The notes beneath the pieces are model-generated. The model had not been told where the DNA came from and did no database searches. It was given only the letters and a program-made list of their open reading frames with translations. From Chloroflexota bacterium (GTDB lineage: Bacteria > Chloroflexota > Anaerolineae > J102), in NCBI GenBank assembly GCA_013152695.1, contig JAADFV010000257.1, positions 1-20,986 of the forward strand: DNA of 20,986 nt, written 5' to 3'. Positions 1,076 to 17,639 of this stretch are shown here, piece by piece. Made by a program: the position numbers and the translations under genes. Positions within the stretch are counted from its first letter, which is position 1. Each line of letters opens with the position of its first letter.

Positions 1076-1681
1076 CTAGGCGAGAGAAAATCCTGCCACA
1101 AAAGCGGCGGTCATTGCCAGTAATAAGGCCGGTAATAGCGTGAGGATGGTCTTTTGCGGGAGAATTGGCTTTCCTGCTTTGAGGAATGCCAGCAATAATC
1201 CACCAACACCAATAAGGGCGCCCCCCAAGCTCACGAGAGCGAATCCTCCTGGGACAGCCCCCCGGAGAACGAGGAAGAAGGGAAGCAGGACAATGACCAT
1301 ACCTGCCACGCCGTGCCCAACGGCCAGAACGATGGTGGCTCCTTGTCCGGGCCTGGTGGTGCGGCTAAAAATGATCGCCAAGAATGCCACAATGACGAAA
1401 ATACGGTAGTAGAGTGTGAACTGGGGCAGGAATTCTGAGACAAGCCCCAGGGAAAGGCTCAAGGGGATGACGGTCGAGACTATGGCGACCAGGGAACTGT
1501 CCAATACCTCAAAGCCCATGATGATCAGTAATAAACCGGCCACGAGGAGAACGCCAAAGGCAACGGTATAGGCCCACGTCGATAGTGTTGTCGCTTCTTC
1601 GATGCCGATGACGATCTGGTAGGCAGCCAGAAGTCCGGTTAGAAGGAGAAGAACTCGGTCGAGAACAGACATTTTCTTCAT
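1076..1681 (-). CDS. Orphan polytopic membrane protein, last gene of the minus-strand unit
   Basis: This gene encodes 201 residues, almost all hydrophobic, forming about six to seven predicted membrane segments separated by short charged loops (for example SRTTRPGQG near residue 107 and LKAGKPILPQK near 167). I do not recognise the family, and no catalytic or heme-ligand pattern stands out. The ATG at 1681 is preceded by GAGGA about 10 nt upstream, which favours it over the in-frame ATG three codons later. It lies 43 bp downstream of the ctaB-like gene on the same strand and ends at the bidirectional terminator, so it is very probably co-transcribed. A role in assembling or anchoring the heme protein encoded upstream is an inference from position only. 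Its Shine-Dalgarno sequence is part of a small inverted repeat. Confidence 0.75.
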   Translation of the reverse strand: MKKMSVLDRVLLLLTGLLAAYQIVIGIEEATTLSTWAYTVAFGVLLVAGLLLIIMGFEVLDSSLVAIVSTVIPLSLSLGLVSEFLPQFTLYYRIFVIVAFLAIIFSRTTRPGQGATIVLAVGHGVAGMVIVLLPFFLVLRGAVPGGFALVSLGGALIGVGGLLLAFLKAGKPILPQKTILTLLPALLLAMTAAFVAGFSLA

Positions 1682-1724: not shown

Positions 1725-2585
1725 TCAGACTACCAACATGACCATCATCATGGTGCTAAGCATGTAAAGGGAGGCGTATTTGAACAGACCGAAATTCGTG
1801 CGTTGGGAGGGTTTTGTGGCGCTGCCGATGGCCAGAAGGAGTAATCCGAGGGAGAGTACGACCATGAGACGCAGGTAGCCAATGGTAAGACCGATCCCGT
1901 AAGCGGCGATGACCATCATGATCGCTGCAATCATGCTGGAGACAGCGATAATAATTTGCGTGACACGGTCACCGTAGGTCGAGGGAAAGGTGGGTATGCC
2001 AGCACGTCGATAATCCTTGTCATATCTCATGCTGAAAGTGAGAATGTGGGTCGGGATCCAGAAGAGGACTGCGAGGGCGAGGAGGATGCCCACCCACTCG
2101 ATCTGTCCTGTTCCCAGAGCTCGTCCGGCTAAGACTGGCATACCGCCGGAAATGCCGCCCCAAACGATACTCCAGGCGGTGCGTCGCTTGAGCCAAATGG
2201 TGTAGATGACGACATCGAAGAAAAGGCCAGCGAAGACGATCAAGCCATAAAGGGGATCGAGGGCAACGGCCCAAGCCACACCTGATATGGCCAGAATAAG
2301 TCCCAAAATAAACGCTTCTCGGGACGAAATTTTACCTGAAGGTAAGGGGCGATTCTTGGTTCGCTCCATTTTTGCATCGATGTCTCGATCATACCACATA
2401 TTCAGGACGGTGCTGCCGCTAATGGCGAGGAATAGGCTACCGGTGACGGCTAACACCGTCTGCCAGTTCTCGATGGGACAGCGTGTGCTCATGAATCCGG
2501 CCAGGCCGGTGGTCAGAAGCAATCCTGTTTGCAAGCTCTTGATGAGCGACCAGTACAAACGGAATTTTGTTTTTAGACTTGTCAT
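1725..2585 (-). CDS. ctaB: Protoheme IX farnesyltransferase (heme O synthase)-like, UbiA family
   Basis: This 286-residue integral membrane prenyltransferase would attach a farnesyl group to heme B, giving heme O for heme-copper enzymes. The first UbiA aspartate motif is intact: N62-x3-D66-x3-D70, followed by KNRPLPSGK at 77-85. The CtaB-type segment YTIWLKRRT lies at 128-136, followed by WGGISGG. The second motif, YDKDYRRAGIPTFP, lies at 188-201. About eight to nine TM segments and the length fit the family. One difference is that the usual PHFWAL stretch reads PTHILTF, so this is a diverged member and another isoprenoid acceptor is not excluded. GGAG lies 8 nt before the ATG. It sits 117 bp after the SUMF1-like lipoprotein gene in the same orientation. 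The context with a heme-copper-like protein supports a heme-modifying role. Confidence 0.82.
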   Translation of the reverse strand: MTSLKTKFRLYWSLIKSLQTGLLLTTGLAGFMSTRCPIENWQTVLAVTGSLFLAISGSTVLNMWYDRDIDAKMERTKNRPLPSGKISSREAFILGLILAISGVAWAVALDPLYGLIVFAGLFFDVVIYTIWLKRRTAWSIVWGGISGGMPVLAGRALGTGQIEWVGILLALAVLFWIPTHILTFSMRYDKDYRRAGIPTFPSTYGDRVTQIIIAVSSMIAAIMMVIAAYGIGLTIGYLRLMVVLSLGLLLLAIGSATKPSQRTNFGLFKYASLYMLSTMMMVMLVV

Positions 2586-2702: not shown

Positions 2703-3656
2703 TCAGTCCTTGGCGCACCTGAAGCCTACGGATGGGCTGTAGTGCTGGGGCCCGGCGCTGTTGAATTTCCAAACACGCAAATCGATTTCGTAGGAGTAGT
2801 AGCTGCCGCCGCGCATGTGGCGGTAGTGTTGATCGGGGTAATCATCACCCAGCCATTGCCACACGTTCCCCGCCATGTCATAGAGACCGTAGGGGCTGGC
2901 AGAGTCAATGGTTTGATAGCCGTCATAGGTCTTGCCATTGTAGAAGCCTACCGGTGTGGTGCTGCCCAACTTACCATAAATCTTTTCATAAGGATCTGAA
3001 GAGGCATAATAGTTGGCGTTGTTGCTTTTGATCTCTTCACCCCAAGGGAAGGGACGGCCGTAACCATCTATGATTTCCGTACCTCGTGCCGCTTTTTCCC
3101 ATTCAATTTCATAGGGCAGGCGGGTACCGTAATATTTGCAATAGGCATTGGCACCAAACCAGGTCACCATGGTCATAGGATGGTTGGCAAATGCTTCCAT
3201 GGCGGTAAAAGTTTTGCCGTCATAGTTGAGGCGAAGGCTGCCATCCTTGGCAAACGGCATATAAAGGTGATCCCCGGCTTTGATTTTCTCTTCGTGCTTA
3301 TAGCCATTGAACGGATCACCCTCGTAATAGCCCCCGACGCCATTCTCAGACCAGACATTTTCGCCTGCTTCAACCTCGAATTCACCGACGCTGATATCAC
3401 CGGAGGCCAGGGCAGCGTTGAGGAAGTCGGCATACTGAGCGACGGTGACATCGGTGACCATGATCTGGAACTCAGCGACATCGACCATATGGCTCATCTG
3501 GCCAGAGGGATATTCACCGCCAGGGATAGTCGCCCAGGCGGTGGGGTCGATTCCGGTATCGAAGATGGGCGGGTTGATTTCGCTCGCGCTGGTCGTTGGT
3601 GCGCAGGCAGATACGAGTAAGACAAGCAAAAGCAGGCTGAAAATAGTGCGTTTCAT
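2703..3656 (-). CDS. Lipoprotein with degenerate SUMF1/FGE-type (formylglycine-generating enzyme) domain
   Basis: This 317-residue protein begins with a lipoprotein signal whose lipobox is LVSAC, Cys18 being the lipidated residue, so it is anchored outside the cytoplasmic membrane. The rest is one SUMF1/FGE-sulfatase fold. Landmarks are IPGGEYPSG near 44, a DVTVAQYADFLNA helix near 70, TWFGANAYCKYYGTRLPYEIEWEKAARG at 165-192, YGLYDMAGNVWQWLGD near 257 and RGGSYYSYE at 282-290, ending in GFRCAKD. The two active-site cysteines of true FGEs (RGGSYxC, then Cys five residues later) are replaced by Ser288 and Leu293. Formylglycine synthesis is therefore unlikely, and a binding or scaffold role is more plausible. 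NirV next to copper nitrite reductases is a known SUMF1-domain accessory protein (family knowledge). The start ATG overlaps the stop of the upstream heme-copper-like gene as ATGA, so the two are translationally coupled. Confidence 0.85.
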   Translation of the reverse strand: MKRTIFSLLLLVLLVSACAPTTSASEINPPIFDTGIDPTAWATIPGGEYPSGQMSHMVDVAEFQIMVTDVTVAQYADFLNAALASGDISVGEFEVEAGENVWSENGVGGYYEGDPFNGYKHEEKIKAGDHLYMPFAKDGSLRLNYDGKTFTAMEAFANHPMTMVTWFGANAYCKYYGTRLPYEIEWEKAARGTEIIDGYGRPFPWGEEIKSNNANYYASSDPYEKIYGKLGSTTPVGFYNGKTYDGYQTIDSASPYGLYDMAGNVWQWLGDDYPDQHYRHMRGGSYYSYEIDLRVWKFNSAGPQHYSPSVGFRCAKD

Positions 3657-5194
3657 TGGGACACCTCCGTAAGAGTTGCCTGAAGTTCTTCCATTTTACG
3701 TTTTTGTTCCTCCAATTCAGCCTCTGCGGTACGTTTTTTCTCTTCATTGAATTCTTTGTGCCACAAACCGTTCTTCTTGAACAGGTCGATCAAGCGCCAT
3801 CCCAGGAAAAGGCCCAGGATGATGAGTATGAGCGCCAGGCCGATGTCCATGAGGAGCATCACGGTATCGACCAAGGGCTGCTGCTCCCATTCGCTCACGA
3901 AAAGACGCTTCATCGAAAAGATCGTGGCGGAAGCAAAGGCAATATCAGAGCCGATGATGATGAGCCAGCCATACCATTTGCGCGCTTTGCCTTTGAGTCC
4001 AGAGAGATCGCCGTAGTAGAGAAGGATAATCGTGGCAATCAATCCCGCTAAGATATGCCAGTGCCCGGTGAGAGTGATGCGCTCTTCCCGGTGAGGCCAA
4101 ACGCGAAAGATGTCTTCCAGTTTGACAGCGAGGAAAATGCCGACACCGCTGACCGTGAAGTTCATGAAGACCATTTGCCAGCCAGTACCAAATTTCAGGG
4201 GATCGTGCACAAGGGCAGCGAGTTTCTGGAAGATGTTTGGTTTTTCGATGTGCTGTTCGGCGATGCGGTCTTTGATCAGCTTGTCCCATGAGAAGATGAC
4301 GTAGCACAATGCCGCCAACATGATGAAAGTTGAGCCCACGTAGATGGTGGTGTGTGCCCATTCCAGCCAGACAACGGAAAGAGCCCCGAAAGTGGTGACG
4401 ATAGTACCGAGAATCATCAAAGGCATGGCAATTTTATGGAGCACGCCCTTGAAATCCATCCATCGACCGACGATGAGGGTGATGGCCACAGCAATCAGGG
4501 TGAGCATGATGTGCAGATGGCCGATGATTGATTTTTGTAGCAACGATTTGTGAGGCAAACGAATGATGTCTTCTGCCAGAAATGTCTCTTGGCCGTTGCC
4601 CCAGAATGAACCGGTAACGGCGCCCCAAACCGAGGAAGTCAAGGTCGCAACGACCATGACAAAAAAGGCGGCACGTTCAAGGCTAATGCCACTTTTCGTG
4701 TGGGCATAAGGCGAGTCTTGGGGTACACGAAACTCTTTTCGCCAGGGCCAAAGGGCGAATGCCAGAAGGACGCCGGCAAAGAAAACTAGCGACTGTCCTA
4801 CCAGAAAGAGGCCATGGAAGGCAAAGTTGTGCCCAAAATAGCCAAAGGCCAGGCCGAAGATGACCACCAGGAGATACCCTACAGTGATCGTGGCATTGAT
4901 GAACACCTGCTCGTAGCGTCTCATGGGCAGGATTTCGGTCATGAAGTACACTTCAATGGCAATCACGGTCATGGCGATGGTGTGATAGAGCAAAATAAGG
5001 CGGCCTTCACGCTGGACCTGCTGTAGATCCATGCCCAGCAATTTCACGGTGATGTCTCGCACACCCCACTCGACCATGGGGCCAGAAAGGGTACCCCAAA
5101 TGGCTGTTATCAGGGCGACCGTGGCGATCGCCACCAAAACCAAGCCTCTGGTAGAGCGGAAAAGATAGTTAAGACGCGTTGCAACAGCTCGCAT
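3653..5194 (-). CDS. Heme-copper oxidase/NO reductase superfamily-like membrane subunit, atypical copper site
   Basis: This 513-residue protein has about 12 TM segments and a charged, coiled-coil-like C-terminus (about 480-508). It resembles subunit I of heme-copper oxidases and NorB. His71 lies in TM2, TGHWH (His378, His380) in TM10 matches the diagnostic HxH of the two hemes, and IGHLH (His226, His228) lies in TM6. The three His-bearing helices are about 152-155 residues apart, as expected from the pseudo-threefold fold. The usual His-His pair at the end of TM7 is replaced by His281-Thr282, and there is no Tyr six residues before it, so an ordinary oxygen reductase is unlikely. Glu278 is nearby. 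Conventional c-type cytochrome or CuA partners are not adjacent; instead a lipoprotein gene overlaps its stop codon and a heme O synthase-like gene follows. It could be a diverged NO reductase-type enzyme or a heme-only electron or sensing protein. Confidence 0.6.
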   Translation of the reverse strand: MRAVATRLNYLFRSTRGLVLVAIATVALITAIWGTLSGPMVEWGVRDITVKLLGMDLQQVQREGRLILLYHTIAMTVIAIEVYFMTEILPMRRYEQVFINATITVGYLLVVIFGLAFGYFGHNFAFHGLFLVGQSLVFFAGVLLAFALWPWRKEFRVPQDSPYAHTKSGISLERAAFFVMVVATLTSSVWGAVTGSFWGNGQETFLAEDIIRLPHKSLLQKSIIGHLHIMLTLIAVAITLIVGRWMDFKGVLHKIAMPLMILGTIVTTFGALSVVWLEWAHTTIYVGSTFIMLAALCYVIFSWDKLIKDRIAEQHIEKPNIFQKLAALVHDPLKFGTGWQMVFMNFTVSGVGIFLAVKLEDIFRVWPHREERITLTGHWHILAGLIATIILLYYGDLSGLKGKARKWYGWLIIIGSDIAFASATIFSMKRLFVSEWEQQPLVDTVMLLMDIGLALILIILGLFLGWRLIDLFKKNGLWHKEFNEEKKRTAEAELEEQKRKMEELQATLTEVSQ

Positions 5195-5358: not shown

Positions 5359-6177
5359 TTACTCAGTTTCCTTGCCTTCCAGAAGTCTCTGCGTCGCGGG
5401 CAAGCATAGGATAATGAGCAGAATGGTGCTGATAATCGGCGCCGGTAAGAACATGGAAAATCGATGGACTTCAGAAACATTGTGGATGCCGAGGATATAG
5501 CCTCCGAGCATAGACATAATGGCGGCAAAAATACCTACGGGGACAGCCCATGATTTTCGTTTGAATGCGGCGAAAATGAAGATTGCCCAGGCGGCGGCTC
5601 CCCACCAGTTGACCTGCTGCAAAATGATATACATCCCATTCCAGAACGCCTTTGGCCCCATATCGAATGCTGTGGGCTTTTGGAAGGTGGCCTGGAACTT
5701 AGAAATTGGGGCGACACCATCGATGAATGTGAGCACATAGGCCAGGCCTGCTACGAAAGTGAGTGCTATGATTTTTTTATTCACATCACCGATCAAGAGC
5801 ATGCCGAACCACATAACGGCAGCGAGGAGAAAGACGGCGATAGTCGGTGTCGACAGACCGCTGTCGGCAGCCGGGATCATGGGGAAGAAACCGGCCAGCA
5901 ACAGAACGGTGGCAGCTACAGCACCCCAAAACCAGGCCCAGTCTTGTTTTTTAAGAAAGCCCCATAGGACGACAACTGAGAGGGCGCCGGCAGCGGTACC
6001 AAACCAGCCAAGCACGGCGTAGACGATGCGTACGGTATTGCTCTCTTCCCACTCCCCAGCATTGAAATGGGTGTGGATAACTGTGTTATAGGTCTCGGCC
6101 AGGAAATAGAGGGTGAGAATCCCTGCCACGATCCCTATAATTGAGAGAATGATACCGAGTTTGTGGTTGTTTTTCAT
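5359..6177 (-). CDS. Orphan 8-TM membrane protein, first gene of the minus-strand unit
   Basis: This gene encodes 272 residues with about eight predicted membrane segments and a short charged C-terminal tail (RLLEGKETE). I do not recognise the family. Visible details are a cluster THTHFNAGEWEE (about 35-46) in the first external loop, a Trp-rich stretch DWAWFWG near 79, a QQVNWWGAAAW helix near 188, and YILGIHNVSEVHRF near 230 with two His residues. Scattered His residues in or near TM ends could bind metal or heme, but no classic motif is present. A strong GGAGG lies 8 nt before the ATG. It heads the unit that continues with the heme-copper-like gene 164 bp downstream, so a partner-subunit or assembly role is inferred from context only. 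Confidence 0.75.
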   Translation of the reverse strand: MKNNHKLGIILSIIGIVAGILTLYFLAETYNTVIHTHFNAGEWEESNTVRIVYAVLGWFGTAAGALSVVVLWGFLKKQDWAWFWGAVAATVLLLAGFFPMIPAADSGLSTPTIAVFLLAAVMWFGMLLIGDVNKKIIALTFVAGLAYVLTFIDGVAPISKFQATFQKPTAFDMGPKAFWNGMYIILQQVNWWGAAAWAIFIFAAFKRKSWAVPVGIFAAIMSMLGGYILGIHNVSEVHRFSMFLPAPIISTILLIILCLPATQRLLEGKETE

Positions 6178-6411: not shown

Positions 6412-7125
6412 TCACGAATCGCCACGTTTTGATAATTTCTCCGGCTCGAGGAGGACAATTTCTTGTCGCCTCACTTTAATCATGCCCTCTTTTTCCAGCA
6501 CCCGCAGGGCGCGGCTCAAGACATCCCGTACTGTCCCCAACCTCACTGCCATTTCATCGAAAGTCGTCCAGGCCTGGCGAGGGACAACCAGCTTTCCCTC
6601 CCGGAATCTGGCATTGCGAAGAAGCGTTCGTGCCACCCGCACCTCCACCCCACACAGGCTCATATCCTCGACCAAATCGATATAATACAGCACACGTTCC
6701 CCCATACGACGGGTCATGGCCATCGTCAGGTCGTGATGTTGACTCATCAGGCGGAGGAGATCCTCGGCAGGGATACTCCAAACATCAACGTCTTCCAGGG
6801 CGGTTACCGTGCCAGGATAAGGTGATTCGGTCAAAACCGCAATATCACCGAAGATTTCACCGGCATATAAGCACAACATGGCTTGCTCTCGCCCCTGGCA
6901 CGACATACGCGTCGCCTTGACCCAGCCCTTCTCGATAAGATAAATCGAAGTCGCCGGCTCGCCTTCAACGTAAATAACCTGTCCGGCCTTGTAGTGACGC
7001 GGTATTGCCACAGCAGCAAGCTTTTTCTGAATTTCTGGCGTCAAGGTATCAAAATGTCGCACTCGAGCAAGCAGATCTTGGAAACGCTTCAGGCGTCTGG
7101 TGGATGTTGCTGAGATCGAGTACAT
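6412..7125 (-). CDS. Crp/Fnr-family transcription regulator
   Basis: I chose the ATG at 7125 (237 aa) because CGGAG lies 9 nt before it; the TTG at 7134 abuts that Shine-Dalgarno sequence. Residues about 22-127 form the cyclic-nucleotide-binding-type beta barrel (YKAGQVIYVEGEPATSIYLI, then GEIFGDIAVL). A dimerisation helix follows at about 128-160. A winged helix-turn-helix lies at about 185-222, with recognition helix TVRDVLSRALRVLEKEG. The four-Cys N-terminal pattern of FNR is absent, so oxygen sensing through a [4Fe-4S] cluster is unlikely. The few Cys residues (about 76, 85, 158) are scattered. The effector could be a cyclic nucleotide, heme/NO or another ligand. It has its own terminator and lies upstream of the minus-strand heme unit and divergent from the sensor kinase. 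Control of either neighbour is an inference. Confidence 0.9.
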   Translation of the reverse strand: MYSISATSTRRLKRFQDLLARVRHFDTLTPEIQKKLAAVAIPRHYKAGQVIYVEGEPATSIYLIEKGWVKATRMSCQGREQAMLCLYAGEIFGDIAVLTESPYPGTVTALEDVDVWSIPAEDLLRLMSQHHDLTMAMTRRMGERVLYYIDLVEDMSLCGVEVRVARTLLRNARFREGKLVVPRQAWTTFDEMAVRLGTVRDVLSRALRVLEKEGMIKVRRQEIVLLEPEKLSKRGDS

Positions 7126-7543
7126 AAGATTCAACTCCGCTTGGTTATATATTTCTGGTCAAGAACGATGGTGATATCAATAGCACCGTTTTATCTTCCC
7201 CCCTAGCTGCTTGATTCCCAGCTAATTCCCCGAAAGTACCCCACCGATCGTACCTTGAAGACGCTTCGGCAACAGAGAAAAAGCAGTACTTACTCATACC
7301 TTATTCTACACCAAAATAGCCGTTTTTGCCATTTGCCGAAGGCCATAAGAGCCCTGCTTCCAGTTGGCTTAGGTAACTCGCCATCATCTCTTATCCGACC
7401 AAGGACGAGCTCCTTCGGGTAGAAGAGAGCGCTGCCTCCGCCTTGAAATACGGCCATTTATTGGAAATGCATTGCTCGCCCTTCCCATTCATGTTATGAT
7501 TCAGCCTCCCCATCCATTTTGGTTCTCTTCATTCGAGGGCATC
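7126..7543. other. Divergent intergenic region between the regulator and kinase genes
   Basis: This 418-bp spacer holds the 5' ends of two divergent genes. Near 7145-7150 the minus strand reads TATATA, a possible -10 for the Crp/Fnr-family gene, but no good -35 was found. TTCGGCAA at 7265-7272 is matched by its inverted copy TTGCCGAA at 7333-7340, 60 nt away, which may be chance. The kinase promoter candidate is listed separately. I found no convincing small gene or RNA. Confidence 0.5.
7472..7500 (+). promoter_or_regulatory. Candidate sigma-70-type promoter of the kinase-regulator pair
   Basis: TTGCTC (7472-7477), a 17-nt spacer and TATGAT (7495-7500), with TG one base before the -10 (extended -10, TGTTATGAT). 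Transcription would start near 7507, about 37 nt before the chosen ATG at 7544. This argues against the upstream in-frame TTG at 7472 and ATG at 7496 as starts. Confidence 0.45.
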
Positions 7544-10749: not shown

Positions 10750-12252
10750 ATGAACAAACGAACCATCATCGCTCTGGTTTTGGTCTTGTTGCTGGCCGCA
10801 GTGGTAACGACAGCCTGCGGCGGCAGTAAGCAAGCTGAGCCAACTCAGGCCCCGGCTCCTACACAAGCACCGGAAGCTACCACAGCACCTGAACCCACCC
10901 CAGTCCCTGAGCCCACCACAGCGCCCGAGCCCGAACTGGTGGGTGATTCGTTGGAGGGGGGGCGGTTGTACGACAAATGGTGGGAAGAGCTAGGTGTGGA
11001 TGTTCCTGAAGGCGATCAGCCCCTCTGGGCGAGCCAGTCCAGCAACAAGCGCAGTGGCGGCGACACCTGGCGTTGTAAGGAATGTCACGGCTGGGATTAT
11101 AAAGGTGTTGAAGGCGCTTATGGCAGTGGTTCCCACAAGACTGGTTTCCCCGGCGTCATGGCCGCAGCGCAAAAGGGTGCTGCCTATGTGCTGGGCGCGC
11201 TCAAAGGCGAAACCAACCCTGACCATGACTTCTCTTCCGTAATGAACGAGCAGGCACTCGTTGATCTCACACTCTTCCTGACCCAAGACCTGGTCGATGA
11301 GAGCCAATTCATTACCGCTGACAAGCAAGCAGCTCAAGGTGATGTCGCCATTGGCAAAGATCTCTTCCTGGAAAGCTGTTCCGACTGCCATGGCCCCGAG
11401 GGTCTGGCAATGAACTTCAAGAATGAAACAGAACCTGAGTATGTCGGTTCTCTCGCTAACGACAACCCCTGGGAGTTCTTCCACAAGATGCGCGTGGGCC
11501 AACCTGGTGAAGAGGACATGCCCCCGGCCATCGATTTGGGTTGGACTGAGGAAGAACAGGCTTCTGTTCTCGCCTTCGTCCAGACTCTGCCCTTGGCCAG
11601 TCCTATCAGCGAAGGTGGCGTACTCTATGACAAGTGGTGGAAAGCCATGGGAATCGATGCTCCCGAGGGTGATCAACCTCTGTGGGTATTGCAGAGCAGT
11701 AACAACCGTAGTGGTAGCGATACCTGGCGCTGTAAGGAATGCCACGGCTGGGATTACAAAGGCGTCGATGGTGTTTATGGCTCTGGTTCTCATAAGACCG
11801 GTTTCCCCGGTATTGTTGCTGCGGCCAGCAAGTCGCCTGAGGACATCGCTGCCTGGTTTGATGGTACAGCCAACCCCGACCATGACTTCTCCCCATACCT
11901 GGGCGAAGCACAGATTGCCATGTTGGTGGCCTTTATCCAGAACGGTCTTCACGATGTGTCACCCTACGTCAACGACGATAAGAGTGCCAACGGCGATTCC
12001 GCACAAGGGAAAATCATTTACACCAAAGATTGTAAACGCTGCCACGGCGAAGATGGCAAAGCGATCAATTTCGGTAGCGATTCCGATCCTGAATATGTCG
12101 GCACCGTTGCCAGTGACAATCCTTGGGAATTCTTCCATAAAGCCAGCTATGGTCAGCCTGGCGAGCACATGCCTTCAGGCATAAACCTTGACCTTAGCCT
12201 CGAAGACCTGGCCGACCTGCTCAGCTACGTCCAGGCATTGCCTGCCAAGTAA
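10750..12252 (+). CDS. Tetraheme c-type cytochrome lipoprotein with internal duplication
   Basis: This 500-residue secreted protein starts with a hydrophobic signal ending in a lipobox-like TTAC (Cys23). A Pro/Thr/Glu/Ala-rich tether follows at about 30-62, which would hold the heme domains away from the membrane. Four CxxCH motifs lie at Cys109, 210, 328 and 428. The protein is two copies of one diheme unit: spacing between equivalent hemes is 219 and 218 residues, and blocks such as DTWRCKECHGWDYKGV, GSGSHKTGFPG, NPDHDFS and DNPWEFFHK recur in both. DMPPA (Met257) and HMPSG (Met474) are likely sixth ligands of hemes 2 and 4. AGGAGG overlaps the stop of the preceding small gene. As the first cytochrome of the operon it is the probable electron exchange partner of the membrane complex outside the cell membrane. 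Confidence 0.9.
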   Translation: MNKRTIIALVLVLLLAAVVTTACGGSKQAEPTQAPAPTQAPEATTAPEPTPVPEPTTAPEPELVGDSLEGGRLYDKWWEELGVDVPEGDQPLWASQSSNKRSGGDTWRCKECHGWDYKGVEGAYGSGSHKTGFPGVMAAAQKGAAYVLGALKGETNPDHDFSSVMNEQALVDLTLFLTQDLVDESQFITADKQAAQGDVAIGKDLFLESCSDCHGPEGLAMNFKNETEPEYVGSLANDNPWEFFHKMRVGQPGEEDMPPAIDLGWTEEEQASVLAFVQTLPLASPISEGGVLYDKWWKAMGIDAPEGDQPLWVLQSSNNRSGSDTWRCKECHGWDYKGVDGVYGSGSHKTGFPGIVAAASKSPEDIAAWFDGTANPDHDFSPYLGEAQIAMLVAFIQNGLHDVSPYVNDDKSANGDSAQGKIIYTKDCKRCHGEDGKAINFGSDSDPEYVGTVASDNPWEFFHKASYGQPGEHMPSGINLDLSLEDLADLLSYVQALPAK

Positions 12253-12291
12253 TTACTGGGCCACTGTCCCCCTCTTTTTCACGGTAGATTT

Positions 12292-12315
12292 GTGGCGCCC
12301 CTTCGGGGGCGTCAC
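12292..12315 (+). promoter_or_regulatory. UUCG-capped hairpin between two cytochrome genes
   Basis: GTGGCGCCCC (12292-12301) pairs with GGGGCGTCAC (12306-12315), including one G-U pair, around a TTCG tetraloop closed by C-G. This is the very stable C(UUCG)G loop in RNA. There is no T tract after it, so it is not a standard terminator. It may protect the 3' end of the tetraheme cytochrome mRNA or cause partial termination, letting the first cytochrome be made in excess of the complex. Confidence 0.55.
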
Positions 12316-12336
12316 GAGTCGAAACAGGAGCCAGGT

Positions 12337-12930
12337 ATGAGAAAAATGATCCGGAATATTGTTCTGTTTCTTCCCTTCGTTCTGATCGCGCTGATCGCTT
12401 TATTGGCCTATTTTATCACTTCTAGCGCCGTGAGCGTGGAAACTGTTCACGCCCTTCCCGAATATGCCAGCCGTACGGAAGAATCCTGTTCCACCTGTCA
12501 TGTCAACCCCGGTGGTGGCGGGCCGCGTACCTTGCGGGGCTTATTGTGGGCGGCGCAAGGAAAACCCGATCAGGTACCCGAATTAGCGGGTGTCTTGCTG
12601 GCTCCGGGCATCTCCGATGGGGCGGAACTTTGGGATATTGCCTGTTCCGCCTGCCACGGTTTGCAGGGAGAGGGGGGATTCGGGCTCACGATTGCCAAGA
12701 GTGGGCTTTCCGAGAATAAGATTCGTGCCGCCGTAAAACGAGGGCGGTTACGGAGCGGGATGCCCGCTTTCCAAGAGCAATTGAGTGAGGAGCAATTGGT
12801 GGCTCTCGTGTCCTTTGTCGTTGGAATTGCCAATGATGTCATCGAACCTCCACCCCCGGCCTATGCCTTGCCCCCGGCCGAGTTCATCTGCCAATCTCAG
12901 ACTGCGCCTGTTTCGTGTGGAGGGAACTGA
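12337..12930 (+). CDS. Membrane-anchored diheme cytochrome c
   Basis: I chose the ATG at 12337 (197 aa), which has GGAG upstream; the longer frame from GTG at 12292 runs through the hairpin. Residues about 8-28 form an N-terminal membrane anchor, and the rest lies outside. Heme c motifs are CSTCH at 51-55 and CSACH at 103-107. GMPAF with Met142 is the likely sixth ligand of the second heme, so the C-terminal part (about 90-165) is a monoheme class I cytochrome fold. The first heme sits in a shorter motif followed by a Gly-rich stretch. The tail is Pro-rich and holds two more Cys (185 and 194) that could form a disulfide. Its stop overlaps the next start by one base (TGATG), coupling it to the molybdopterin subunit. 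It resembles the small cytochrome subunits of Alternative Complex III-like systems in position, not clearly in sequence. Confidence 0.88.
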   Translation: MRKMIRNIVLFLPFVLIALIALLAYFITSSAVSVETVHALPEYASRTEESCSTCHVNPGGGGPRTLRGLLWAAQGKPDQVPELAGVLLAPGISDGAELWDIACSACHGLQGEGGFGLTIAKSGLSENKIRAAVKRGRLRSGMPAFQEQLSEEQLVALVSFVVGIANDVIEPPPPAYALPPAEFICQSQTAPVSCGGN

Positions 12931-15308
12931 TGGCCCAATTCACTCGTCGTCAATTTCTCAAACTTTCTGGCACTGCTGCTGGTGTGGCTGCAGTGGCCGG
13001 GGCCACGCCCGCGCTTCTAAAAAGGAATCCGAGCGTAGAGGCCGCTGCCTCTCAGTTTCAAACTTCGGGCGAGGACGTGATCGTCCCTACCGTCTGCTTG
13101 CTCTGCCCCAGTGGTTGCGGCATGCTGGCGCGAGTGGCGGATGGATATGTGGTGAAGATGGAAGGCAACCCAATGCATCCAATCAATCTGGGTGCCCTTT
13201 GTCCCAAAGGTCAGGCTGCCCCAGAGTTACTCTACAACCCTGATCGTCTGAAAGCGCCCCTGCAGCGCCAGGGTGAACGTGGCGCCGGTCAGTGGCAGGA
13301 AATCGGCTGGGATGAAGCCATTGCGGTCGTTGCCCAGCGTCTTAACGACTTAAGGGAAGCGGGCCGGCCGGAACAGGTGGCGCTGATGATGGGAGAAACC
13401 CGAGGTCAGCTTCGCTCTTTCTTTGAACGCTTCTTCCAGGCTGTAGGCTCTCCTAACGCGATTTCGCGGGATAGCCTCAACGTCGAAGGCGCCAAATTAG
13501 CGGCTTACTACACCCAGGGCATCTACAACTTCCCTTCCTACGATCTCGAAAACAGCAATTATATCCTCAGTTTTGGTGCTAACCTCCTGGAAGCAGGCCC
13601 TTGGGTGCAACGTACCATTGCCGGCTATGCCTTTATGCGACGGGGCCGCCCCACACGTGGAAAGGTCGTGATATTCGACCCTCGCCAGGGCGTTACCGGC
13701 TCCAAGGCTGATGAATGGATTCCCATCAAATCCGGTACCGATGCGGCTCTGGCGCTGGGCATTGCCCATGTCCTCATCAAAGCCGGTCTCATCGACTTCG
13801 AATTTGTGCACGAATACGGCTTTGGCTTCGAAGATTTCACCATCGACGGTGTCAAACACAAAGGGTTCAAGAACTTCGTTCTCGAAAACTATGACCCACG
13901 TAAAGTCGAAGAGGTGACGGGTGTGCCTGCTGCCACCATCTCCCGCCTTGCCGGTGAGTTTGCCAATAATCAACCAGGTGTGGCGATCCTGCCTGGCAAA
14001 GGTGGACTGCTCAACGGCAGTATCGGTGGCCTCTATGCGGGGATGGCCGTTCACATCCTCAATGCTCTCGTTGGCAATATCGACAAACGGGGCGGTGTGC
14101 AGACTCAGCGTTACATGCCCTGTACACCCTGGCCCGAGCTACCCCCGGATCCTCTGGCCGAGGCCGGCCGTCAACAAGAGCGTGTGGATGGCGCCGGTAC
14201 TTTCTTCACCCTCGCCCGCCATGCCTTTCAGGCCGTAGCCGAACGCGTCCTCGCCGGCAACCCGCTCGATACACTCTTTCTCTACGATGCCAACCCTGTT
14301 TTTGAAGCCCCGGGCGGAGAACATTTTGTCGAAGCTTTCCAAGATATCTCATTCATTGTCTCCTTTTCATCTTTTCTGGATGAATCCGCCCAGTACGCTG
14401 ATCTCATATTGCCAGAACCTTCCTTTTTGGAACGGTGGGAGGATGATCATATCGAAGGTTTGGGCTATCCCGGCATTGCCTTGCGCCAGCCGGTGATCGA
14501 GCCTCTCTACAACACCATGAACACCGCGGACTTCTTCCTCAAGGTGGCACAGGCCATGGGGGGTACTGTGGCCCAGGCTTTCCCCTGGACGAATTACGAA
14601 GAGGTGTTGCAATATCGCCTGCAAAACGTGGGTACCGACTGGGAGACACTGAAAGAGCTGGGGGTTTGGCTAACGCCCGCCTATTATTTCGCGCGTCGCG
14701 GCAGCAAGCGTTGGTTGCAGGAAGTGGTGGGAAGCGATCGACTCTCTGCTCCCCGAGATGGCCGATTCGATTTTTATGCTCGTGAGTTGGAATGTGCTCT
14801 CGAGGGTTTCGATAGCGAAACTTTGGCATCGATGGGTGTAGCAGCCTCAGCGACTACACTCTACCTTCCTCACTTCGAACCCCCAGTTTATGAGGCCACA
14901 GAAGCCGAATATCCTTTCCACCTCAATGTGATCACCCTCATGAGTCTGGGGCCTTTCAGCGCCGCCGCCAATATGCCCTCTCTCATGGAGATCAGTGGCA
15001 TGACCGTGGGGGAGAGCTGGCGGGGTTGGGTAGAAATGAATCCAGAAACCGCACGGGAACTGCATCTGAACCAGGATGATGAGGTGATTGTCGAAAGTCC
15101 CTTTGCTCGCGTACGAACCCGGCTCAAGCTTGTGCCTGGTCTTCGCCCCGACACCATCAATATGCCGTACAACTTTGGTCACACGGCAGTGGGACGTTAT
15201 GCCAAAGATAGGGGCGCCAACGGCCTCAGTCTCATGTCTGCTCGTAGTGAACCAGTCACTGGCTTGGCTGCCCTCACCAACACCCGTGTTCGTATCAAGC
15301 GAGCCTGA
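12930..15308 (+). CDS. Molybdopterin oxidoreductase (DMSO reductase/MopB superfamily) catalytic-type subunit, Tat-exported
   Basis: Starting at the ATG at 12930 (GGAGGG upstream), the 792-residue protein has a twin-arginine signal (TRRQFLKLSG). A [4Fe-4S] site follows at Cys56, 59, 63 and 91 (CLLCPSGCG, LCPKG), then the molybdopterin domains (GANLLEAGPWVQ, VVIFDPRQ, WIPIKSGTDAALALG) and the C-terminal dinucleotide-binding domain from about 660 (WVEMNPETARELHLNQDDEV). It groups by eye with Psr/Phs/Ttr-type enzymes and the ActB MopB domain. In Psr-type enzymes the metal-binding Cys lies in SPNxxxHxSxC; here the segment is GSPNAISRDSLN, so the ligand position is Asn184. The protein may lack the metal, use another residue, or act only as an electron conduit as in ActB. 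A TorD-like chaperone gene in the same operon favours cofactor loading. The substrate is unknown. Confidence 0.9.
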   Translation: MAQFTRRQFLKLSGTAAGVAAVAGATPALLKRNPSVEAAASQFQTSGEDVIVPTVCLLCPSGCGMLARVADGYVVKMEGNPMHPINLGALCPKGQAAPELLYNPDRLKAPLQRQGERGAGQWQEIGWDEAIAVVAQRLNDLREAGRPEQVALMMGETRGQLRSFFERFFQAVGSPNAISRDSLNVEGAKLAAYYTQGIYNFPSYDLENSNYILSFGANLLEAGPWVQRTIAGYAFMRRGRPTRGKVVIFDPRQGVTGSKADEWIPIKSGTDAALALGIAHVLIKAGLIDFEFVHEYGFGFEDFTIDGVKHKGFKNFVLENYDPRKVEEVTGVPAATISRLAGEFANNQPGVAILPGKGGLLNGSIGGLYAGMAVHILNALVGNIDKRGGVQTQRYMPCTPWPELPPDPLAEAGRQQERVDGAGTFFTLARHAFQAVAERVLAGNPLDTLFLYDANPVFEAPGGEHFVEAFQDISFIVSFSSFLDESAQYADLILPEPSFLERWEDDHIEGLGYPGIALRQPVIEPLYNTMNTADFFLKVAQAMGGTVAQAFPWTNYEEVLQYRLQNVGTDWETLKELGVWLTPAYYFARRGSKRWLQEVVGSDRLSAPRDGRFDFYARELECALEGFDSETLASMGVAASATTLYLPHFEPPVYEATEAEYPFHLNVITLMSLGPFSAAANMPSLMEISGMTVGESWRGWVEMNPETARELHLNQDDEVIVESPFARVRTRLKLVPGLRPDTINMPYNFGHTAVGRYAKDRGANGLSLMSARSEPVTGLAALTNTRVRIKRA

Positions 15309-15321
15309 GGAGAACATATCA

Positions 15322-16044
15322 ATGCCTAAATGGTCCATGGTTATCGATCTGGAAAAGTGCGTTGCCTGTCAAGGCTGCACCATCGCCTGCCGTTTCGAAA
15401 ACAACACACCGGCTGTTTCGCCGGAACTGGCCTGGCAGGGGCGAGAGATGCGTTGGAACGATGTTTTTCCTATGCCTCATCAAGAAGAAGGTGAGTATCC
15501 GAATACGAAGAGCGCCTATCTTCCCCGCCCCTGTATGCACTGTGAAAACCCTCCCTGCATTAAAGTGTGTCCTGTACAAGCCACCTTTATCGACGAAGAG
15601 GGCCTGGTGCGCCAGAATTATGCCCGCTGCATTGGCTGTCGCTATTGTACGGTCGCCTGTCCTTATGGTGTGCGCTACTTCAACTGGCTTGCGCCAGAGT
15701 TCGATGCGACCCTGATCCAGCACCTCAATCCCGATAAAATCGAAGGTCCTGGCGATCTGGAAGGGCCGGCTGTGCGCCCCAAGGGCGTGGTGGAAAAATG
15801 TACTTACTGTGTTCATCGCCTGACAAAAGCTCGCGCCAGGGCTAAGGCCGAAAATCGGGATTTTCGTGCCGATGAATACGTTCCCGCCTGTGTTCAGACT
15901 TGCACCGGTAAAGCCCGTTATTTCGGTGATATCGATGATCCTGACAGCACCGTTTCCCAACTGGATAAAAGTGAACGGGCTTTCCGTCTGTTGGAAGAAG
16001 TCGGTACCTATCCCAAGACCATCTATCTCCAGGAAGGTAAATAA
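15322..16044 (+). CDS. Iron-sulfur subunit with four [4Fe-4S] clusters (PsrB/DmsB/NrfC type)
   Basis: The ATG at 15322 has GAGGAG about 9 nt upstream; the longer open frame from 15088 lies inside the molybdopterin gene. The 240-residue protein carries 16 Cys in four groups: 13/16/19/23, 71/74/79/83, 103/106/109/113 and 160/163/190/194. This is the full set for four cubane clusters, as in PsrB, DmsB and NrfC. It has no signal peptide, so it probably crosses the membrane folded with the Tat-exported MopB subunit, as is known for this family. It would carry electrons between the MopB subunit and the quinone- and cytochrome-facing parts of the complex. It lies 13 bp after the MopB stop and 2 bp before the membrane subunit. 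In Alternative Complex III this domain is fused to the MopB part (ActB); here it is a separate gene. Confidence 0.92.
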   Translation: MPKWSMVIDLEKCVACQGCTIACRFENNTPAVSPELAWQGREMRWNDVFPMPHQEEGEYPNTKSAYLPRPCMHCENPPCIKVCPVQATFIDEEGLVRQNYARCIGCRYCTVACPYGVRYFNWLAPEFDATLIQHLNPDKIEGPGDLEGPAVRPKGVVEKCTYCVHRLTKARARAKAENRDFRADEYVPACVQTCTGKARYFGDIDDPDSTVSQLDKSERAFRLLEEVGTYPKTIYLQEGK

Positions 16045-16046
16045 GC

Positions 16047-17639
16047 ATGTTACGTATCAAAAGAGAGGATAGACAAGCCTTACTGGATCCCATGTTTCGG
16101 GCTGGGCGCGGTTTCTATCTGTTAATCGGGGTCCTGATTTTGATCATGGTTTGGGGACTGGTTATGTACATACGCCAGGTCGTCTTTGGTTTGGGGCTTA
16201 CCGGCATGGATCGGCCTGCTTATTGGGGTCTGTACATGGTCAATTTCATTTTCTTCATCGGCATCAGCCATGCCGGCACCCTTATCTCGGCCATTTTACG
16301 TGTAACCCAGGCAGAATGGCGACGTCCCATCACTCGTATTGCCGAGGCAATCACTGCCTTTGCCCTAGTCGTTGGAACTCTACAGATTCTGTTCGATCTT
16401 GGGCGTCCCGATCGCTTGCTCTATCTTTTCCGCTTCGGTCGTCTGCAATCACCGTTATTATGGGATGCCGTCGCTGTGACGGCTTATTTCCTGGGCAGCC
16501 TTACCTATCTTTACCTGCCCATTATTCCCGATGCGGCACTATTGCGCGACAATCTGCCGGCAGGTGTACGCGCCTGGCGGCGCCGTCTTTACACGATAAT
16601 GGCTTTAGGCTGGCGAGGCAACCGCACGCAGTGGTTGCGCCTGGAGAAGACGATTGCCGTGATGGCGGTATTGATCATCCCCGTCGCTGTATCGGTTCAT
16701 ACCGTCATCTCCTGGATTTTGGCCACGACGGTACAGCCCGGTTGGCATAGTACGGTGTTTGGGCCCTATTTTGTAGTGGGAGCCATTTTCTCGGGTATCG
16801 GCGCTCTCTTTATTGCCATGACGGCCGTTCGCCGCGTGATGCACCTCGAAGCTTATATCACCGAACGCCAGTACCGCAATCTCGGCTACATCTTTATCAC
16901 CATGTCGGCCATCTGGTTCTATTTCACTTATGCCGAACACATGACCCTTGCTGCCGGCCAGCTAGAGGCAGAATTTCCGGTGTTGGCCAGTAAGTTGTGG
17001 GGACCCTTTAGCTTCTCCTTCTGGTCGATGGTTGTGATTATGGTCGTGGCCTTTGTCGTGCTGGTTTTCCCCCAATTAACGCCTTCTTCCTGGCAGAGAT
17101 TGCGCGTATTTCGACCCCGTTTTGCCTTGAGTAGCGGCGTGGTCTCTCTTGCGGCCATTCTTCTTTTACAGATACCGCAAGCCCTGGGCGTTACTGCTGG
17201 CGTCTTGCCTGGCTTACCCACTACTGCCTTACGGCTTGTTGCCGGTACTTTTGGTATCGGAGCACTCCTGAGCATTCTGCCCTGGCTGAAAAGTCATATT
17301 GTCGATGCCATGGTGATTGCTTCTGGTTTCGTGGTGGTGGGGATGTGGCTGGAGCGCTGGAATATTGTCGTTCCAACCATGGTGCATCCTCGTTTGATGC
17401 CCGTTAGTTGGTACACTCCCACCCTAACAGAATGGTCATTATTTGCAGCTTCCGTGGCTCTGTTTGTCTTCCTATTCGTGATCTTTTTCAAACTTTTCCC
17501 TGCCGTATCGGTTTGGGAGGTACGAGAAGGTCGGGTTATCGATGATAGTCAGGCCAGTGCCCGCTCACCCATGCCCGAACCCTCTCTTCCCAGCGGCGGT
17601 ATGCAGCCTGCTTTTGGTGATAACGAACCCACTTATTGA
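16047..17639 (+). CDS. NrfD/PsrC-family integral membrane subunit, ActC-like
   Basis: This 530-residue protein has about 10 or more TM segments. The N-terminal part shows the sequence typical of ActC-like NrfD proteins: LTGMDRPAYWGLYMVNF (51-67), FFIGISHAGTLISAILR (69-85), then TQAEWRRPITR and DLGRPDRL (117-124). His75 in ISHAGT lies where quinol-site residues are found in this family. ActC proteins usually read HLGRPW; here it is FDLGRPD, with Asp117. The length and TM count match ActC/ActF better than the 8-TM PsrC of Thermus. The C-terminal tail (about 490-530) is soluble, Pro/Ser-rich and less conserved. It starts 2 bp after the FeS gene. The expected job is to exchange electrons between the quinone pool and the FeS subunit, perhaps with proton movement; the direction of flow is not visible. 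Confidence 0.88.
   Translation: MLRIKREDRQALLDPMFRAGRGFYLLIGVLILIMVWGLVMYIRQVVFGLGLTGMDRPAYWGLYMVNFIFFIGISHAGTLISAILRVTQAEWRRPITRIAEAITAFALVVGTLQILFDLGRPDRLLYLFRFGRLQSPLLWDAVAVTAYFLGSLTYLYLPIIPDAALLRDNLPAGVRAWRRRLYTIMALGWRGNRTQWLRLEKTIAVMAVLIIPVAVSVHTVISWILATTVQPGWHSTVFGPYFVVGAIFSGIGALFIAMTAVRRVMHLEAYITERQYRNLGYIFITMSAIWFYFTYAEHMTLAAGQLEAEFPVLASKLWGPFSFSFWSMVVIMVVAFVVLVFPQLTPSSWQRLRVFRPRFALSSGVVSLAAILLLQIPQALGVTAGVLPGLPTTALRLVAGTFGIGALLSILPWLKSHIVDAMVIASGFVVVGMWLERWNIVVPTMVHPRLMPVSWYTPTLTEWSLFAASVALFVFLFVIFFKLFPAVSVWEVREGRVIDDSQASARSPMPEPSLPSGGMQPAFGDNEPTY

Follow-up and report, generated by a model that had tools for sequence, protein, structure and literature searches.

The heme–copper oxidase (HCO) superfamily accounts for most biological O2 reduction and for much N2O production, and estimates of when O2 rose make use of its branches. 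The cbb3 oxidases of this superfamily use b and c hemes, and its nitric oxide reductases (NORs) use heme b; a heme O synthase is typical of O2-reducing sites. Six His residues are given as the signature of HCOs in the available part of PMC3413370, which also describes putative NO dismutases (Nod) in which one FeB His is replaced by Asn. For the eNOR class, the available part of PMC8756737 names a diagnostic Gln in subunit I and a cupredoxin subunit II encoded upstream. Here we describe a gene in a stretch of 20,986 nucleotides from a Chloroflexota bacterium (contig JAADFV010000257.1), the whole of which is called the window below. The gene (3653..5194, minus strand) encodes a subunit-I-like protein of 513 aa with 12 predicted transmembrane (TM) helices, which belongs to an unnamed family with a predicted HCO fold. 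From this fold, the invariance of key residues, the absence of the second member of the oxidase His–His pair, the operon and a dedicated heme O synthase, we infer that the protein is a heme-bearing, quinol-fed reductase in the membrane, with a metal site of two His ligands and a small molecule, most likely O2, as its substrate; we put the probability of this reading at roughly one half.

An unnamed family with the predicted HCO fold

An earlier note, made from the sequence of the window, had proposed that the gene encodes a diverged HCO-like protein. Across 3653–5194 the plus strand contains several stops, and the real open reading frame (ORF) is on the minus strand. Searches of Pfam, NCBIfam and PDB sequences left the 513-aa protein unrecognized, and the COX1 family PF00115 had no match in the window. 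A protein search in which 8000 candidates were scored nevertheless returned at least 3226 relatives at E 0.001 or better. Source names among the best 120 relatives (two lists) were mostly 'hypothetical protein', the exceptions being MFS permease, YfcA-like and one 'Cytochrome oxidas...'; the incomplete UniRef name 'Cytochrome oxidas' is that of relative P0238. A literature search found no description of the family, a weak negative given that subscription papers and preprints lay outside its coverage.

Relatives were present in 151 stretches of a GTDB sample holding one genome per species, and the best 80 of these 151 loci were analysed. Every title among the 80 was that of a metagenome-assembled genome (MAG) or an uncultured bin. 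The hosts were Anaerolineae and other Chloroflexota, Calditrichota, Ignavibacteria, Neomarinimicrobiota, Bacteroidales, Aminicenantes, KSB1, Desulfuromonadaceae/Geobacteraceae and Spirochaetales. The family is rare in even genome samples, with full-length matches in two of 198 genomes from one phylum and three of 82 from another. Conservation was assessed in 80 aligned sequences (the window and 79 loci) and then in 324 distinct homologs, whose median pair identity is 68% (3000 random pairs).

In the AlphaFold2 (AF2) model the protein adopts the 12-TM subunit I fold of the HCO superfamily, with TM2 at residues 59–88, TM6 at 218–245, TM8 at 280–313 and TM10 at 373–397. His residues are present where HCOs hold their heme ligands, in TM2 and as an HxH motif in TM10, although their exact register is not pinned and the predicted local confidence (pLDDT) is low at the start of TM10. 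We regard the HCO fold as almost certain, in support of the earlier proposal of an HCO-like subunit I. Sequence proof of kinship with HCOs failed: hhalign comparisons of the family alignment with alignments of CcoN, NOR, qNOR, A-type and fused proteins gave nothing significant, nor did repeat-wise profile comparisons with HCOs. A Foldseek search with a half-model placed no HCO in the top 50. One full-length profile alignment brought all five ligand His into register, with His226 rather than His228 as the TM6 residue; it did not score significantly, was lost on masking the His or changing the reference row, and was not used. The lack of significant sequence similarity to any HCO would also suit an unrelated 12-TM transporter whose HCO-like AF2 model was caused by His-rich helices. 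We find such a look-alike hardly credible, and the profile search placed the protein in no unrelated transporter family. The absence of any profile match agrees with the earlier description of a diverged branch.

Seven invariant His residues and a predicted reduced metal site

Seven His residues are invariant in the 324 homologs (codons are on the minus strand): His71 (4982..4984) in 323 with one gap, and His127 (4814..4816), His226 (4517..4519), His228 (4511..4513), His281 (4352..4354), His378 and His380 (4055..4063, with Trp379 between them) in all 324. The earlier note had placed six of these correctly, together with Glu278 and Thr282, had given their spacings (155, 55 and 97) accurately, and had asked about conservation in homologs, which holds for the six His; it missed the seventh, His127, at the start of TM4. 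Its helix placement is borne out for TM2, TM6 and TM10, but His281, at the TM7–8 junction, opens TM8 in the AF2 model rather than ending TM7. Arg62, Arg65, Tyr119, Met230, Asp331, Gln340, Asn345, Trp366, Glu371 and Arg372 are likewise fixed, and Tyr285 and Tyr393 (323/324 each) and Glu81 (321/324) nearly so.

We propose that His71 and His380 are the ligands of a low-spin heme and that His378 is the proximal ligand of a high-spin heme; the register of His71 to CcoN His60 is not pinned, and local pLDDT is low around the TM10 motif (49 for block 371–380). In comparisons that used the half-model, His228 maps onto the TM6 CuB His in five of five cbb3 structures, with modest local confidence. Against ba3, one of three entries maps it to residue 233, which we take to be the TM6 copper ligand, and the other two are off by one. 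With His228 as the copper-site match, equivalent to the TM6 ligand of CuB or FeB, the extra TM6 His is His226. The earlier note was thus right that TM6 carries an additional His, and the half-model assigns that role to His226 and that of copper ligand to His228. No His occurs at the −2 position, the site of His226, in any of 57 canonical HCOs, and none of these has a His column matching His127.

The TM7 His–His pair of HCOs is reduced to His281. At position 282, Thr is found in 224 homologs, Asn in 27, Ile in 27, Lys in 15, Tyr in 14 and a few other residues in the remainder, but His in none of the 324; hence the whole family lacks the second member of the oxidase His pair, as Thr282 had suggested. 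Glu278, noted earlier as lying nearby, was rejected as a ligand: the position holds Glu in only 111 homologs, Pro in 100, His in 48 and other residues elsewhere, so Glu278 is not a family feature. The claim that the cross-linking Tyr is absent holds for TM6, where no Tyr lies at +4 of either His (Met230 in 324/324 after His226, Thr232 in the window after His228), but a Tyr does occur four residues past His281 (i,i+4; H-x-x-x-Y), as Tyr285 (4340..4342). His281 and Tyr285 are thus a candidate for a relocated His–Tyr pair. The family appears to keep five of the six signature His of HCOs and to add two, His127 and His226.

Relation to the named HCO classes

Since the HCO fold is predicted, but the full His signature and significant profile matches are lacking, the family is not placed in any named class; we file it as a variant of the HCO kind by fold, outside all of them. 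PF00115 matched none of the family members' places in a search of 19 carrier genomes, and it was absent among the families listed for 63 members (25 of 43). From cbb3 CcoN the window protein differs in having neither a TIGR00780 match nor a significant hhalign score, and the family in lacking the second His of the TM7 pair, in possessing His127 and His226, in having no CcoO or CcoP in its operon nor a cluster of them in its neighbourhoods, and in the heme O synthase tied to its gene. From the A- and B-type oxidases (aa3, bo3, ba3) the family differs in having no PF00115 match and no CuA subunit, in its incomplete copper triad and in its His at −2 in TM6.

A rival reading makes the family a new NOR class or NO detoxifier, alongside cNOR, qNOR, eNOR and their kin. 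Ligand loss has a precedent in the putative NO dismutases, as far as the available part of PMC3413370 describes them, and CRP/FNR-type regulators upstream of some loci would also fit. The NOR sequences (24 of the 57 canonical HCOs), however, have a Glu four positions past the TM6 His, where the family has Met230 (counted from His226) and the window protein Thr232 (from His228); the operon has no NorC-like subunit; and no conserved cluster was seen in the family neighbourhoods for a cupredoxin, the subunit II ascribed to eNOR in the available part of PMC8756737. The heme O synthase tied to the HCO-fold gene likewise argues against a NOR. The likeness to Nod is limited, on the partial description in PMC3413370, to replacement of one metal-site His of the sextet: Nod is a relative of qNOR with Asn at that site, whereas the family has mostly Thr, Asn in only 27 of 324, and two extra invariant His.

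Two other proteins were noted. The 'atypical' oxidase of Melioribacter roseus was considered and set aside, being, in the available part of PMC5492636, an A-type enzyme and a different protein. In genome G281, a 458-aa protein encoded beside CtaD (L123:1474-2847), with a weak COX1 score of 47.7 bits and no NCBIfam match, is another diverged HCO-like protein.

A conserved operon with its own heme O synthase

Two genes downstream of the HCO-fold gene lies a heme O synthase gene (CyoE/CtaB; 1725..2585, minus strand), whose product scores 242.5 bits against TIGR01473 and passes the cut-off of 210.3. Counting only loci with enough flank, a heme O synthase is encoded downstream on the same strand within 2.2 kb in 66 of 68 loci, L071 among them having only a short, low-scoring piece; in the other two, L027 and L030, it is nearby on the opposite strand. 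Between the two genes is that for a 317-aa FGE-fold protein (2703..3656, minus strand; PF03781, 8.7e-37), which has a lipobox-like N terminus and overlaps the stop of the HCO-fold gene by 4 nt. It immediately follows the HCO-fold gene in 76 of 77 loci; in the exception, L009, an FGE match is present but the ORF call begins within the HCO-fold gene. Its best PDB sequence match is SUMF2 (1y4j), with which it shares the FGE fold. Alignment to 6muj shows that the catalytic Cys pair of FGE is missing, as it is from SUMF2; its lipobox-like N terminus and constant place next to the HCO-fold gene set it apart. The sole Cys kept in 90% of 72 relatives is C314, in the motif GFRC.

Neither a CuA subunit, a cytochrome c nor a copper chaperone is conserved in the operon neighbourhoods. 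So small an operon, with no redox subunit and, at some loci, regulators encoded upstream, might be expected of a gas or redox sensor, a heme receptor whose signal passes to those regulators or through the FGE-fold lipoprotein. The protein has no signalling domain, though, and its 12-TM core is conserved, with charged and Tyr residues that are invariant deep within the helices; together with an invariant heme O supply that would be excessive for a sensor, this makes a sensor role very improbable.

The 19 carrier genomes bear on what the heme is made for. A PF00115 protein is present in 11; the eight without one are MAGs of unstated completeness. Each of these eight has exactly one TIGR01473 gene above 200 bits, that of the operon (three pass the cut-off and five score 201.6–208.3 bits), all others being at or below 70 bits, and none has a heme A synthase. 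Because the operon's is the sole strong heme O synthase in these genomes, its heme O is most likely produced for the HCO-fold protein. It is highly probable that this protein binds heme, and likely that it uses heme O. Cytochrome bd occurs in three of the eight, and in the remaining five the HCO-fold protein is the only terminal-reductase candidate seen. NirK was found in none of the eight, and cd1 only as one weak partial match, so its substrate is unlikely to come from denitrification; taken with the residue and subunit differences described above, this leaves a NOR function distinctly unlikely.

Proposed mechanism

The reading that we favour, a quinol-fed reductase with a two-His metal site, would work as follows. 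Electrons would pass from a low-spin heme held between His71 and His380 to heme O, its iron ligated by His378, the hemes being supplied by the synthase encoded in the operon. Quinol is the probable donor because the conserved operon holds no CuA or cytochrome c subunit. Above heme O, a reduced metal site would have His228 and His281 as ligands, with Tyr285 probably close by; a small molecule would be reduced beside it, perhaps with Tyr285 as radical partner. The FGE-fold lipoprotein, which lacks catalytic cysteines, would sit outside as a subunit with a structural or assembly role. We lean moderately towards a reductase. O2 is favoured as substrate on account of heme O and Tyr285, a choice that we make only tentatively; the protein might then scavenge O2, or support micro-aerobic respiration, in hosts that are largely anaerobic.

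The same residues could instead form three low-spin or closed heme sites (71/380; 378 with 228 or 281; 226/127) in a protein that links quinone to an extracytoplasmic partner by electron transfer, with no gas chemistry. The two extra invariant His, the loss of the full CuB triad and the lack of a conserved copper chaperone among the operon clusters are in keeping with this. We think it unlikely, as it does not account for a dedicated heme O synthase or for the conserved Tyr285, and the operon has no conserved gene for a redox partner.

Internal repeats and a possible third pore

Comparison of the family profile with itself by hhalign revealed two internal repeats, repeat 2 (residues 166–325, TM5–8; 4220..4699, minus strand) and repeat 3 (residues 326–480, TM9–12; 3755..4219, minus strand), with a score of 41.1 and E of 4.2e-6. 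The highest control score was 22.3 when columns were shuffled and 23.8 when blocks were (60 shuffles each), and the reversed control gave 16.2. The alignment pairs GHLHIM with GHWHIL, ungapped, and thereby His226/228 with His378/380. Repeat 1 had no significant similarity to either.

In CcoN, all three arcs are related (scores 52.7–64.9, shuffled maximum 28.4), and the His of TM2 lines up with the first TM10 His. Its TM6 His corresponds to the second TM10 His if helix 6 is aligned ungapped from a downstream Tyr–Tyr anchor (spacing 16 in both); hhalign itself introduced a two-residue gap and matched the first TM10 His instead. This significant threefold repeat at profile level (CcoN loci L112, L116, L132–L151) sets CcoN apart from the A-type and NOR alignments, whose internal-repeat scores were at or near noise.

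By the same repeat logic, His228 would occupy the copper-site position and His226 would correspond to His378 but face the pore that is left; by pseudo-threefold symmetry it would sit at the place from which TM10 provides the active-site heme with its axial ligand. We therefore suggest that His226 in TM6 and His127 in TM4 face the third pore of the fold, which to our knowledge holds no cofactor in known HCOs. An attempt to match His127 to His281 by sequence (both lie in an H-x5-G motif) was abandoned, as shuffles scored as well in four of 40 cases for TM3–4 versus TM7–8 and in 12 of 40 for TM2–4 versus TM6–8; the figures were 37 of 40 for TM2 versus TM10 and 28 of 40 for TM2 versus TM6. Given these results and the lack of similarity to repeat 1, the third-pore idea draws on helix topology and symmetry rather than on sequence statistics. 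An elaboration in which all three pores are filled, one by a heme at 71/380, one by a heme at 378 with His228 and His281, and the third by a heme or metal at His226 and His127, with 281/285 as the relocated pair, strikes us as rather unlikely.

Other genes of the operon and the window

Beyond the heme O synthase gene lies that of an unnamed membrane protein, M201 (1076..1681, minus strand), with no Pfam match; it is downstream in 44 of 63 loci, and a paralog is upstream in 30 of 60. A second unnamed membrane protein, M272 (5359..6177, minus strand; no Pfam match), is encoded upstream, as in 18 of 60 loci. Further upstream is a CRP/FNR-type regulator (6412..7134, minus strand; PF00027, PF13545), which likely regulates the operon; a CRP cluster occurs in 24 of 81 neighbourhoods.

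A NapH/NosR-like 4Fe-4S membrane protein, a possible quinol-side partner, is encoded upstream in 10 loci (for example L010:3133-3969 and L014:6520-7356). Long proteins encoded ahead of the operon at two loci from Chloroflexota (L012:3055-4566, L029:4692-6269) were rejected as second subunits; they are repeat lipoproteins, lipoprotein-like with two tandem domain copies, a conserved HSCG motif and no NCBIfam match. An unnamed cluster of multi-pass membrane proteins without a Pfam match (L066:13417-14391 and kin; 41 members) recurs, with paralogs, in 33 neighbourhoods.

On the plus strand of the window, positions 1–972 encode a partial multiheme cytochrome with several CxxCH motifs, convergent with the operon. 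A 500-aa lipoprotein-like cytochrome with a tandemly duplicated c-heme region (10750–12252) is followed by a cytochrome c, a molybdopterin oxidoreductase (best NCBIfam scores PhsA/QrcB, under the cut-off), a 4Fe-4S protein and a DsrP/NrfD-like membrane protein (12292–17639). The genes at 10750–17639 are likely a separate respiratory complex.

Implications

A family with the predicted HCO fold and thousands of members, yet no Pfam or NCBIfam profile, is missing from surveys of HCOs. Its reduced metal site, together with an extra pair of invariant His residues, offers a natural way to learn which ligands are required for chemistry on O2 or NO. If all three pores are indeed filled, the family would represent a terminal-reductase lineage of its own, using heme O, in bacteria that live at low oxygen. 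As the sole terminal-reductase candidate seen in five of the eight carriers without COX1, it could show how supposedly anaerobic bacteria meet O2.
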